Positions 12,010-14,991 of a stretch of 64,000 nucleotides of DNA are shown one piece after another. Below the pieces are notes generated by a model. The model was not told the origin of the DNA. It did not search any database and saw nothing but the letters and a program-made list of their open reading frames with translations. The first letter of the stretch is position 1. Each line of letters starts with the position of its first letter. The position numbers were made by a program, and so were the translations under genes. Origin of the DNA: an uncultured Sunxiuqinia sp. (GTDB lineage: Bacteria; Bacteroidota; Bacteroidia; Bacteroidales; Prolixibacteraceae); the NCBI RefSeq assembly GCF_947495665.1, contig NZ_CANLZV010000002.1:372001-436000 (forward strand), given 5' to 3'.

Positions 12010-12780
12010 TTACTTGAGCGACTTTTCCGGAAGGAATTTCCAGTAGCGTTGGGGCATGTGTTGACGTTGCAGCTTAGGGTTCTTTCGTTCCTTGATGTTG
12101 ATGCTGTCAAAATAGTTTTTCCAGAGTCTTTGATAATTGACTTCATTTTCCTGCAAGAGATTGGCATCTACTTTCCCATCCCATGCCGAAAAATTCTGTT
12201 CTGAAAGAACGATTTCCTGTGTTGTTTTCAAATCGTAATAGAAGCCATAATTTCGCTTGATGTCATAAATGATCCACTGCTGATCGGCAAAACGATTTTT
12301 AAAATGGTGAAGAACAAAAGGCAATACATCGAAAGCAGGCTCAACGGGGGCGAAGTAGATGCCATCTTTGGTTTCCTGAAATCTTACAAATTCAAGTAGC
12401 CGGGCTGTTTCCTGCAGTACCTGGCGTTCAATTTTTTTGAGTTGAAGTACATCGGCATCTCCGTAATCGGTTTCAATGCTAAAATTGTTGTCAAACAAAC
12501 GACAAATGAAACGGTAAAGCATCATCTCAATGCCGGGTTGTTCTGATAGAAAAGTTCGGTAGGGCAAATCTTTATTGCGCCGATGGAGTTTTTTCTGCAG
12601 GCCTTTCCAAACCCTTTCTGCCTGTTTTTCATCGGTTGAAATGAATTGTTTTTCGGCAAACAGGATTTCTTGAAAAGCCGCTTCCCTGCAGATGTTTGCA
12701 GGGCTTAGGTCTTGCTGGTAACATTGAAAAATTACACTTAAGAAGCCTTCAAAACTTCCATCGTAAACCAAGTAAGTCAT
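12010..12780 (-). CDS. TIGR03915-type (DUF4130) putative DNA repair protein
   Basis: A 256-residue protein of the TIGR03915/DUF4130 family. It starts with the typical MTYLVYDGSFEGFLSVIF, continues with ERQVLQETARLLEFVRF and KDGIYFAPVEPAFDVLPFVLHHFKNRF, and ends in the RYWKFLPEK motif. The family is known mainly by its pairing with the radical-SAM protein TIGR03916 and, in other bacteria, by fusion to a uracil-DNA-glycosylase-like domain; its biochemistry is undescribed to my knowledge. It follows the radical-SAM gene by 4 bp in the same operon, so the two probably act on the same DNA lesion or modification. Confidence 0.9.
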   Translation of the reverse strand: MTYLVYDGSFEGFLSVIFQCYQQDLSPANICREAAFQEILFAEKQFISTDEKQAERVWKGLQKKLHRRNKDLPYRTFLSEQPGIEMMLYRFICRLFDNNFSIETDYGDADVLQLKKIERQVLQETARLLEFVRFQETKDGIYFAPVEPAFDVLPFVLHHFKNRFADQQWIIYDIKRNYGFYYDLKTTQEIVLSEQNFSAWDGKVDANLLQENEVNYQRLWKNYFDSINIKERKNPKLQRQHMPQRYWKFLPEKSLK

Positions 12781-12784
12781 AGCA

Positions 12785-14092
12785 TCAGTTTCTAAAATGA
12801 AGTTGTTTGGGAGTCTTGCTCATTCCCGTTTGAGGAGGAAATAGCATGAGCTGGGTGTCGCCAGCCTTTCTGCGTTTCATTAGGCTTTCAGCAATAATGT
12901 GGCTTTTTAGCTGCGCCGGATCCCAATCAGTCATTCGAGCAGGTAATTCGTTGCAGGTAATAAAGTACTGCGCACGCTTTAATACAACGCCTATTTTTTT
13001 GAGGTGGTAGCTCGTTAAGTGACGAAAGCGGCGGGCATCTACAATCATTCTGGCAGATTGCACACCTATGCCGGGGACCCGCAGGATCATGTGATAGTCG
13101 GCCTTATTGATATCAACCGGAAACAGGTGCAGGTTGCGGATGGCATAAGCCAGTTTGGGATCAACGTCCAAGTCGAGAAAGGGTTGTTCGGGACTCAATA
13201 TCTCATCAGCAGAGAATTCATAAAAACGCATCAGCCAATCGCTTTGGTAAAGCCGGTTTTCCCGAACAAGTGGGGGAGTCTGAATGGCCGGCAACCGTTG
13301 GTCGTATTCATTGACGGGCAGGTAGCCCGAGTAGTACACGCGTTTCAGCTTTTGACGTTGATAAAGGTTGGAGGACAATTGCAGGATTTGCCGGTCGCTT
13401 TCGGGGCTGGCACCAACAATGAGCTGAGTGCTTTGGCCGGCTGGTGAAAATTTCGGTATATGCCTGAATTTTCGGCGTTCATCTTTGTATTGTTGAATTC
13501 CCTGATGAATCTGGTCCATTGGTTGCAAGACGCTTTGAAAATCTTTTTCCGGAGCCAGCTTCTTTAGTTGCTGTTCAGTTGGAATTTCAATGTTCACACT
13601 TAGCCGATCAGCATAGTGTCCGGCAGCCTGTATCAGCTCTTGACTGGCACCCGGAATGGCTTTCATATGAATGTATCCGTTGTAGCGCTCTTCCAAACGT
13701 AATTTTTTAGCTACCAGCATCAGGCGTTCCATCGTATAATCCGGATTCTTAATTACCCCGGAACTCAGAAAAAGCCCTTCAATGTAATTTCTTCGGTAAA
13801 AGCCGATGGTCAAATCAACAACTTCCTGCACGGTAAACGTGGCACGCGGACGATCGTTGGTGCGTCGGTTAATGCAATAGGCGCAATCGTAAATGCAATG
13901 ATTCGTCATCAGAATCTTAAGCAAGCTAATGCACCGCCCATCGTCGGTAAAGCTGTGGCAAATGCCAGCCGCTACCGAATTTCCAACTCCTCCTGGCGTA
14001 TTTCTTCTGCTGCTTCCACTCGAAGAGCAGGAAACATCATATTTAGCAGCATCTGCTAATATTTTTAGTTTTTCCTGAACTTTTTGAGTCAT
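12785..14092 (-). CDS. TIGR03916-type radical-SAM DNA repair/modification protein
   Basis: A 435-residue radical-SAM enzyme. The [4Fe-4S]-binding motif NHCIYDCAYC gives Cys66, Cys70 and Cys73. The barrel continues with EGLFLSSGV and the IPTEQQL/KFSPAGQSTQLIVGA segments. At about residues 335-350, RVPGIGVQSARMIVDARR is a helix-hairpin-helix motif, a sign of DNA binding. An N-terminal Ser/Cys-rich stretch (residues 20-35) and further cysteines at 45 and 54 are seen. Its partner TIGR03915 lies 4 bp downstream and a LexA-like regulator is divergent. A role in repairing or marking damaged DNA is inference; the reaction is unknown. Confidence 0.92.
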   Translation of the reverse strand: MTQKVQEKLKILADAAKYDVSCSSSGSSRRNTPGGVGNSVAAGICHSFTDDGRCISLLKILMTNHCIYDCAYCINRRTNDRPRATFTVQEVVDLTIGFYRRNYIEGLFLSSGVIKNPDYTMERLMLVAKKLRLEERYNGYIHMKAIPGASQELIQAAGHYADRLSVNIEIPTEQQLKKLAPEKDFQSVLQPMDQIHQGIQQYKDERRKFRHIPKFSPAGQSTQLIVGASPESDRQILQLSSNLYQRQKLKRVYYSGYLPVNEYDQRLPAIQTPPLVRENRLYQSDWLMRFYEFSADEILSPEQPFLDLDVDPKLAYAIRNLHLFPVDINKADYHMILRVPGIGVQSARMIVDARRFRHLTSYHLKKIGVVLKRAQYFITCNELPARMTDWDPAQLKSHIIAESLMKRRKAGDTQLMLFPPQTGMSKTPKQLHFRN

Positions 14093-14136
14093 CTTGCCTT
14101 ATCTTTACCCGTTAATTCAAGGATTCTGGCTCCTTA

Positions 14137-14148
14137 TTGTTATAACAA
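14137..14148. promoter_or_regulatory. Perfect 12-bp palindrome TTGTTATAACAA
   Basis: It lies in the radical-SAM/S24 intergenic region, next to the main operator and overlapping the minus-strand -7 box. It may be a second operator site. Confidence 0.4.
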
Positions 14149-14153
14149 AAATA
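14146..14153 (-). promoter_or_regulatory. -7 element of the radical-SAM operon
   Basis: Read on the minus strand it is TATTTTTG, matching TAnnTTTG. The leader would be about 45 nt to the ATG at 14092. The palindromic operator covers its upstream side. Confidence 0.55.
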
Positions 14154-14177
14154 CTAATAATATTAGTACGTGCTAAT
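14152..14177. promoter_or_regulatory. Compound palindromic operator shared by both divergent promoters
   Basis: TACTAAT-AAT-ATTAGTA (14152-14168) is a perfect 17-bp palindrome. Its right half-site also forms ATTAGTAC/GTGCTAAT (14162-14177, one mismatch), giving three spaced half-sites. It touches the -7 box of the radical-SAM operon on one side and occupies the -33 region of the S24 regulator gene on the other. This is the arrangement expected for an autoregulated repressor controlling both units. Confidence 0.7.
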
Positions 14178-14185
14178 ATTTTTGG

Positions 14186-14193
14186 TAATTTTG
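14186..14193 (+). promoter_or_regulatory. -7 element of the S24 regulator gene
   Basis: TAATTTTG matches TAnnTTTG. Transcription from about 14200 gives a leader of about 33 nt to the GTG start at 14233. Confidence 0.55.
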
Positions 14194-14232
14194 TTAGGAA
14201 AGATATGATGGATTTTATAAAAAATTGAAGGT

Positions 14233-14991
14233 GTGAATTTCTTAGCTCAGAATATTAAATACTTACGCAGGAAAAAGAAGTGGACGCAACAGCAACTTGC
14301 GGACGAACTGGAGGTAAAACGTGCCTTAATCGGTTCTTATGAAGAGGGGAGAGCAACGCCCAAGATCCCGGTGCTCCAGCGTTTGGCGGCTTTGTCTGAA
14401 TCAACCATTGATCGCCTGCTTGATACGCCCTTGGAGGCAGAGCGGGCCCTAAGCAAGGCCATGCCACGGATATTGCCCATTGTGGTGGATCAGGATAATG
14501 AAGAACTTATACCAATTGTTCCGGCTAAGGCGTCGGCTGGTTACCTGAGCGGTTTTGCCGATCCGGAATATGTGGGAGCATTGCCCCGTTTTTATATGCC
14601 TATTCCCGAATTGTCGCGAACTGCTACTTATCGGGTTTTTCAGGTTCGAGGGGATAGTATGTTACCCGTAACACCCGAATCTTATCTTTTTTGCGAGTAT
14701 GTTTCGGATATCAATGACCTGCGCGAAGGGCAACCGTATGTTTTAATCACCAGGGAAGAGGGACTGGTTTACAAACGAGTATATTTCAAAACTGGAGATC
14801 AGCTGTTGCTGAAGTCGGATAATCCGGCCTATGAGCCTTATTCGCTTGATATGGAGCAGGTGCTGGAGCTCTGGAAAGCGAGAGGTGTTTTGAGCTTTGA
14901 GCTGCCGAAACCCGAAAATATTGAAGCCGCACACATTTCATCTGTCTTGAATGAGGTGAAAGAGGAAATTAAAAGACTTCGAAAGTCATAG
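14233..14991 (+). CDS. XRE-S24 (LexA-like) transcriptional repressor
   Basis: A 252-residue regulator that starts with GTG. Residues 5-60 form a Cro/CI-type helix-turn-helix (LRRKKKWTQQQLADELEVKRALIGSYEEG split over two helices). Residues 90-220 form a LexA/UmuD-like S24 domain with all self-cleavage elements: the scissile Ala102-Gly103 in KASAGYLSG, nucleophile Ser142 in VRGDSMLP and general base Lys181 in LVYKRV. The spacing (39 and 39 residues) is close to that of E. coli LexA. RecA-stimulated autocleavage is inferred, not shown. It is divergent from the radical-SAM pair across a shared palindromic operator, so it probably represses that pair and itself. Confidence 0.93.
   Translation: MNFLAQNIKYLRRKKKWTQQQLADELEVKRALIGSYEEGRATPKIPVLQRLAALSESTIDRLLDTPLEAERALSKAMPRILPIVVDQDNEELIPIVPAKASAGYLSGFADPEYVGALPRFYMPIPELSRTATYRVFQVRGDSMLPVTPESYLFCEYVSDINDLREGQPYVLITREEGLVYKRVYFKTGDQLLLKSDNPAYEPYSLDMEQVLELWKARGVLSFELPKPENIEAAHISSVLNEVKEEIKRLRKS

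Follow-up and report, generated by a model that had tools for sequence, protein, structure and literature searches.

An S24 repressor facing a radical SAM-DUF4130 operon across shared candidate operators in an uncultured Sunxiuqinia

Genes and candidate operators of the divergon

The window analyzed here is a 64,000-nucleotide stretch of DNA from an uncultured Sunxiuqinia sp. (contig NZ_CANLZV010000002.1, positions 372,001 to 436,000), whose genome comprises 4.73 Mb in 70 contigs. We examined a divergon in which the gene for an S24-type repressor faces a two-gene operon. The operon lies on the minus strand and is comprised of a radical S-adenosylmethionine (rSAM) gene of TIGR03916 encoding a helix-hairpin-helix (HhH) region (12785-14092) and a stand-alone DUF4130/TIGR03915 gene (12010-12780). 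The S24 gene has a GTG start and occupies 14233-14991 on the plus strand. An earlier reading of the letters alone (the original prediction) had placed all three genes at these positions, and open reading frame (ORF) calls, NCBIfam and Pfam agreed with it. Both operon genes scored far over the cut-offs of the TIGR03916-TIGR03915 pair in NCBIfam (669.2 bits against 343.5 for rSAM; 276.3 bits against 112.25 for DUF4130); here the pair stands beside an S24 regulator and is without a uracil-DNA glycosylase (UDG) domain. The HHH_3 match of rSAM fell slightly under the Pfam cut-off (24 versus 27 bits).

Pfam analysis of the regulator revealed an HTH_3 domain (PF01381; 41.2 bits, cut-off 23) together with Peptidase_S24. 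The predicted self-cleavage set (Ala102-Gly103, Ser142, and Lys181) was found in full, and in 101 aligned S24 homologues the alanine was kept in 98 (M in 2 and G in 1), with the glycine, serine, and lysine kept in all 101. At E ≤ 0.001, HTH_3, HTH_31, and HTH_19 were matched, the LexA DNA-binding model was not, and the winged-helix N-terminal domain of canonical LexA was therefore not found. What the protein does have are the features of non-canonical LexA from Bacteroidetes, namely, the S24 domain with its residues, a CI-like HTH_3 domain, and CTAA-N5-TTAG in its own promoter. In a search that may omit the window's own genome, its nearest named relative was a protein from Sunxiuqinia indica (69% identity; Prolixibacteraceae, placed in Marinilabiliales in NCBI taxonomy).

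The palindrome TACTAATAATATTAGTA (TACTAAT-N3-ATTAGTA; 14152-14168) has at its core an exact CTAA-N5-TTAG, candidate operator O1 (CTAATAATATTAG; 14154-14166). It had been described as a compound palindrome with a third half-site; the palindrome is real, but the supposed half-site is a second operator, O2 (CTAATATTTTTGG; 14173-14185), which lies 19 bp from O1 and carries one mismatch. In Sunxiuqinia loci L096 and L097, the equivalent of O2 is exact and the 19-bp spacing is kept. The original prediction was right about the O1 region but missed an exact CTAA-N5-TTAG inside the rSAM gene. This candidate operator, O3 (coding strand, CTAAAAATATTAG; 14056-14068), spans the codons for L-K-I-L and the first base of the codon for A.

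The -7 box of Bacteroidota has the consensus TAnnTTTG. A -7-like box of this type for the rSAM operon (TATTTTTG; 14146-14153, minus strand) abuts O1, and another is present for the S24 gene (TAATTTTG; 14186-14193, plus strand); an alternative S24-side box (TATTTTTG; 14177-14184) lies inside O2. The main palindrome, the first two boxes, and a second palindrome, TTGTTATAACAA (14137-14148), had all been given correctly to the letter, but TTGTTATAACAA is absent from all 80 named homologous loci and thus is not conserved there. Sigma-70 and terminator scans gave results no better than shuffle level. The perfect TACTAAT-N3-ATTAGTA is present as a single copy in the genome. At up to three mismatches it was matched at 210 places compared with 491 for the reversed control, so that loose matches show no genome-wide excess.

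Recurrence of the arrangement in related genomes

A set of 45 distinct rSAM/S24 intergenic regions, the window included, was searched for the operator. Exact CTAA-N5-TTAG was found in 37 of the 45 regions and at 49 sites, against a mean of 0.47 (maximum, 3) in dinucleotide shuffles and 1 site for the reversed motif. Spacers other than 5, over the range 0 to 11, gave 0 to 2 sites each. With one mismatch allowed in the operator, 25 of the 45 regions had the rSAM-side -7-like box (CAAAnnTA) beginning 0 to 9 bp to its left. At the same stringency, neighboring sites were 17 bp (3 cases), 18 bp (1), 19 bp (6), or 21 bp (6) apart, with longer spacings of 30 bp (1), 31 bp (1), and 42 bp (7). This conservation, with the abutment of the rSAM-side box and the operator, supports the original view that the S24 repressor shares operators with the TIGR03916-TIGR03915 operon.

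Among the 80 named S24 loci, an rSAM gene was within the locus in 43 and directly divergent within 700 bp in 40; among the latter, no more than 250 bp separated the S24 start from an exact operator in 29, or in 33 when one mismatch was allowed. S24 genes of this lineage in Cryomorphaceae and Schleiferiaceae loci often have Y-family polymerase and DnaE genes after them instead. TIGR03916 was over its cut-off in 20 of 119 genomes sampled at the level of the order, and an S24 gene divergently adjoined it in 6 of those 20, the window's included. Across 198 genomes sampled from the phylum, TIGR03916 was over cut-off in 60 and TIGR03915 in 62. The two samples yielded 48 rSAM loci, 12 of which carried one of three operator motif classes; 41 had no adjacent S24 gene, and CTAA-N5-TTAG was upstream in 7 of these 41 (L077, L084, L205, L206, L208, L214, and L220).

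Three further loci were noted in the course of these searches. Locus L164 (Bacteroidetes bacterium GWF2_33_16) has rSAM, DUF4130, Y-family polymerase, and DnaE genes in one row facing an S24 gene. At G134:C1:2991563-2993126, an S24 match diverges from a DUF4130 match of partial length, in a genome for which TIGR03916 is not among the matches listed. In L041 (G234), the S24 homologue has three in-frame stops, and an rSAM gene on another contig has an upstream CTAA-N5-TTAG.

CI-like S24 proteins were described as the non-canonical LexA of Bacteroidetes, with the operators CTAA-N5-TTAG and GGA-N5-TCC, by Sanchez-Osuna et al. (2021; PMC8565304, cited here for its main text). That text reports binding in electrophoretic mobility shift assays and mitomycin induction by reverse transcription-quantitative PCR for family members in other species, and it gives a COG1573-COG4277 operon as a predicted target. 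The system described here is the same in its S24 A-G/S/K residues, its CI-like HTH_3 domain, its own-promoter CTAA-N5-TTAG, and its predicted COG1573-COG4277 target. It differs in that the regulator faces rSAM-DUF4130 directly and seems restricted to the divergon, and in that it coexists with two paralogs that use GAYTA-N5-TARTC. The original designation of the locus as an undescribed system is thus not supported: family, operator, and predicted target are already in PMC8565304, and the regulatory idea is mostly known. What is added here is a seemingly local, paralog-split circuit, the GAYTA-N5-TARTC class, recurrence of the arrangement under GGA-N5-TCC, a codon-embedded site, and extra cysteines.

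The main text of PMC8565304 also states that the non-canonical LexA groups are absent from the order Bacteroidales, whereas we found S24 matches at E ≤ 1e-30 in 48 of the 119 genomes of the sampled order; taxonomy and the complete-genome set of that paper may account for this. Neither GATTA nor TAATC is printed anywhere in that main text, from which the strings Prolixibacter and Marinilabili are likewise absent, and nothing joining SOS or LexA with Prolixibacteraceae was found in the open-licence PMC literature.

Since the operators cover both -7 regions, we propose that S24 represses both itself and the rSAM-DUF4130 operon, and we consider it likely that the locus is a self-contained DNA damage divergon in which this repression lasts until damage occurs. 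The course of events that we infer, from binding and repression through cleavage and induction to repair, would be as follows. S24 dimers would probably occupy the intergenic sites O1 and O2, and O3 within rSAM may be bound as well; the -7 regions on both sides would thereby be covered, and the S24 gene and the TIGR03916-TIGR03915 operon would be kept off. Once RecA filaments had formed on damaged DNA, they would cause Ser142 and Lys181 to cut the Ala102-Gly103 bond, and transcription of both operons would rise.

The regulator might instead be a prophage-type or toxin-antitoxin-type repressor that lies beside the pair by chance and exerts no damage control. XRE-S24 proteins are common in phages, and the top NCBIfam scores of the regulator's HTH were to RstR and HipB-type models, although every one was below cut-off. 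The arrangement and its operators recur across many loci, however, with another operator class in G130 and G182, and the genes downstream of the S24 gene, ftsY and rimO (both over cut-off), are housekeeping genes. We regard a chance association as highly improbable.

Several observations weigh against the damage divergon. Eight of the 45 intergenic regions lack an exact CTAA-N5-TTAG, and O2 itself departs from it at one position. Two of the eight, L211 (G182) and L215 (G130), each contain GGA-N5-TCC three times, at spacings of 18 and 23 bp, and carry the same rSAM-DUF4130/S24 divergon under this other published operator class. Many loci come from related metagenome-assembled genomes, so the counts are not independent. 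Moreover, the 250 bp upstream and the first 60 bp were free of all three motif classes in 36 of the 48 rSAM loci, which makes the operator wiring far from universal and points to control in some lineages only.

The O3 site requires the Leu codons CTA and TTA within the peptide [KR]-L-[KNSTR]-[IV]-L-[ASG]. After deduplication, and with 17 linked and 21 unlinked genes ineligible, both codons were used in 18 of 29 eligible rSAM genes with an S24 gene within 3 kb, compared with 1 of 20 eligible unlinked genes (Fisher p 5.8e-5, uncorrected for phylogeny). From the Leu codons used in the rest of these linked genes, a rate of about 1.75% (0.088 x 0.199) would be expected. The O3 letters could also reflect constraint on the protein (the conserved L-K-I-L-A) or shared ancestry rather than a binding site: the encoded peptide is generally conserved in rSAM proteins, and linked and unlinked rSAMs mostly separate by clade. 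On the rSAM tree, S24 linkage was clade-like, with 5 changes and 4 independent pairs (starred branches), which leaves no power to exclude shared ancestry. In this phylogenetic test, L231 and L233 were scored as unlinked, as their loci end before S24, although the overlapping L215 and L211 do show it. The synonymous choice of CTA and TTA, far above its predicted rate in linked genes, argues against constraint. We view constraint or ancestry as possible but somewhat doubtful, and O3 as a real operator as supported, by sequence comparison, but unproven.

The rSAM and DUF4130 proteins

Six cysteines were invariant in 68 aligned rSAM proteins: C66, C70, and C73 of the CxxxCxxC motif and, in addition, C22, C45, and C54. 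A seventh, C380, was kept in 60 of the 68. The invariance of C22, C45, and C54 beside CxxxCxxC suggests a second Fe-S cluster. The structure model of rSAM had a mean pLDDT of 84.0, with residues 11-50 partly low, and its top fold matches were HydE, LIAS/LipA, MiaB, and BioB. These matched as radical SAM cores, which does not fix the reaction, and in comparison with them the rSAM protein adds the HhH region. Several of these four have extra cluster cysteines beyond CxxxCxxC, and the extra-cysteine motif of LipA, CX4CX5C, differs in spacing from C22/C45/C54. Sequence search of the PDB with rSAM returned two weak matches only, to an HhH protein and to a HydG-type entry. The substrate presumably is DNA.

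The DUF4130 model was confident (pLDDT 93.7) but had no PDB match at E ≤ 0.001 in Foldseek. Sequence search of the PDB gave S100-type and CSC1-like matches only, at E ≥ 0.02, and the protein matched no further Pfam family at E ≤ 0.001. Assignment as a DHH/RecJ-like phosphoesterase was tried and rejected: the top Foldseek rows were mostly of DHH type, but TMq was 0.21-0.43 and none reached E ≤ 0.001, and comparison with an NrnA-type DHH profile gave a probability of 0.2%, against 22.7% for the control of NrnA with RecJ. The part of PMC3765255 that treats DUF4130 predicts a mutagenesis-related enzyme. A described reaction for TIGR03916 or TIGR03915 was not found in the open-licence PMC literature, in line with the original prediction.

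We also scanned 71 Bacteroidota DUF4130 proteins, picked from 88 collected plus the window's own. All 71 matched DUF4130 and none matched a UDG model (E ≤ 0.01); three had one stray weak match each to other families. All 88 collected proteins were 243 to 309 aa long under a length filter of 230 to 420 aa, which would have dropped longer fusions, and the longest of the open frames listed is 371 aa. Fusions of TIGR03915 to a UDG domain occur elsewhere. The pair could be thought of as a base excision system built on UDG, and the main text of PMC8565304 says that the COG1573-COG4277 operon involves UDG. Because UDG was matched by none of the 71 proteins, nor by either member of the pair here, that wording probably does not fit these proteins, and we consider a UDG-based system very unlikely. 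In the damage divergon that we favor, rSAM (probably with two Fe-S clusters, and binding DNA through its HhH region) and DUF4130 would have damaged or modified DNA bases as their direct substrates. The adjoining damage-type regulator with its predicted operators, present also in named Sunxiuqinia strains, makes the induction of the pair and the inducing lesion directly testable.

Genome-wide sites and S24 paralogs

The genome has 14 matches to the pattern CTAAWN3WTTAG, of which two are at the divergon, 98 bp apart. The pattern was rarer than its reversed form (14 versus 42), which may mean that stray operators are avoided or may be an effect of codons. Of the 12 sites outside the divergon, 6 lie within ORFs of at least 100 aa. 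A recognized repair gene adjoined none of the 12 in this exact or near-exact search, which weak operators could escape, and the strong-looking sites were therefore rejected as regulon members. Pfam analysis of ten ORFs at nine of the sites identified HlyD, PFL-like, AraC, TetR, glycosyltransferase, and DUF families. At the recA locus, CTAA-N5-TTAG was not found even with one mismatch allowed, nor were GATTA-type sites at the thresholds applied. Three Y-polymerase loci had no exact CTAA-N5-TTAG, with one-mismatch matches in L176 and L177. By exact sites, then, no multi-operon SOS regulon taking in polymerases or recA was found; weak sites may exist.

Two more S24 proteins of full length are encoded in the genome, paralogs with 39% and 37% identity to the divergon S24. 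Both, L180 (G000:C2:193280-194044) and L181 (G000:C6:41692-42468), are divergent from a Y-family polymerase gene of Pol IV type (279.3 and 277.6 bits; cut-off 256) that has a DnaE gene after it. The original prediction had suggested looking for the TACTAAT-N3-ATTAGTA motif at imuB/dnaE2-type genes, and in this genome it is not there: each paralog promoter instead has two GATTAT/GACTAT dyads exactly 24 bp apart and no exact CTAA-N5-TTAG. In 23 upstream regions of the paralog clade (L045-L065 and the two from this genome), GAYTA-N5-TARTC was present in 16, at 24 sites, and CTAA-N5-TTAG in none. The reversed motif gave 0 sites, mononucleotide shuffles gave a mean of 0.06 (maximum, 1), and of spacers 1 to 9 only 5 was found. 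On a tree of 101 S24 proteins, which takes in 40 of the 80 named loci, the CTAA and GAYTA operator classes were split by a single change, with 42 rows carrying neither motif.

S24 paralogs with diverged dyads are reported in the main text of PMC8565304. The one in E. anophelis faces an error-prone polymerase across the site TTAC-AAATT-GTAA and resembles the two paralog loci here as a divergent S24/polymerase pair with a diverged N5 dyad, although the operator letters differ. Unlike that paralog, the divergon regulator serves rSAM-DUF4130 and not a polymerase.

The divergon S24 might alternatively be the global SOS master repressor of the organism, the divergon being one target of many. Its family and operator are those of published master regulators, and large CTAA-N5-TTAG regulons exist in Hymenobacteraceae, Sphingobacteriaceae, and Chitinophagaceae (PMC8565304). 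Here, however, none of the 12 outside sites in 4.73 Mb is by a recognized repair gene, recA and the three Y-polymerase loci lack exact sites, and both polymerase divergons have S24 paralogs and another operator of their own. We consider a master repressor unlikely. As neither the other CTAA sites nor the recA and Y-polymerase loci give a repair target, the regulator looks local and dedicated to the rSAM-DUF4130 divergon in this genome, judging from the sites found. Against a dedicated regulator stand the limits of the search, which took exact or near-exact sites and could miss weak operators at other genes, and of the Pfam scan, which covered 9 of the 12 sites (genes at L189, L198, and L199 were left out) and in which two ORFs (L193 and L196) matched no family. 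With respect to the paralog operator, GATTAT-N3-ATAATC at up to two mismatches was commoner than its control genome-wide (270 versus 104).

With exact-type CTAA sites marking this divergon but no other recognized repair gene, and paralogs of another operator facing the polymerases, the SOS response looks split. Control of the Pol IV-type polymerase and DnaE genes would fall to the two paralogs. We tentatively suggest, as an idea with nearly even prospects, that the SOS response of this lineage is broken into circuits of one divergon each, under paralogous CI-like LexAs whose operators do not overlap. A direct repair arm (two-cluster rSAM and DUF4130) would use CTAA-N5-TTAG, and a mutagenic polymerase arm would use GAYTA-N5-TARTC as a third class of operator. 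On at least two occasions, with different operators, S24 repressors would have taken control of the repair arm, whose operator array would reach into synonymous codons of the repair gene. If this is so, orthogonal repressors would let repair and mutagenesis be induced separately, and the split response would be clean material for studying co-divergence of S24 repressors and their operators. The S24 promoters of L028 and L030, which face Y-polymerase genes, carry a near-identical perfect palindrome, TGATACAA(A/T)TTGTATCA, possibly a further operator class.

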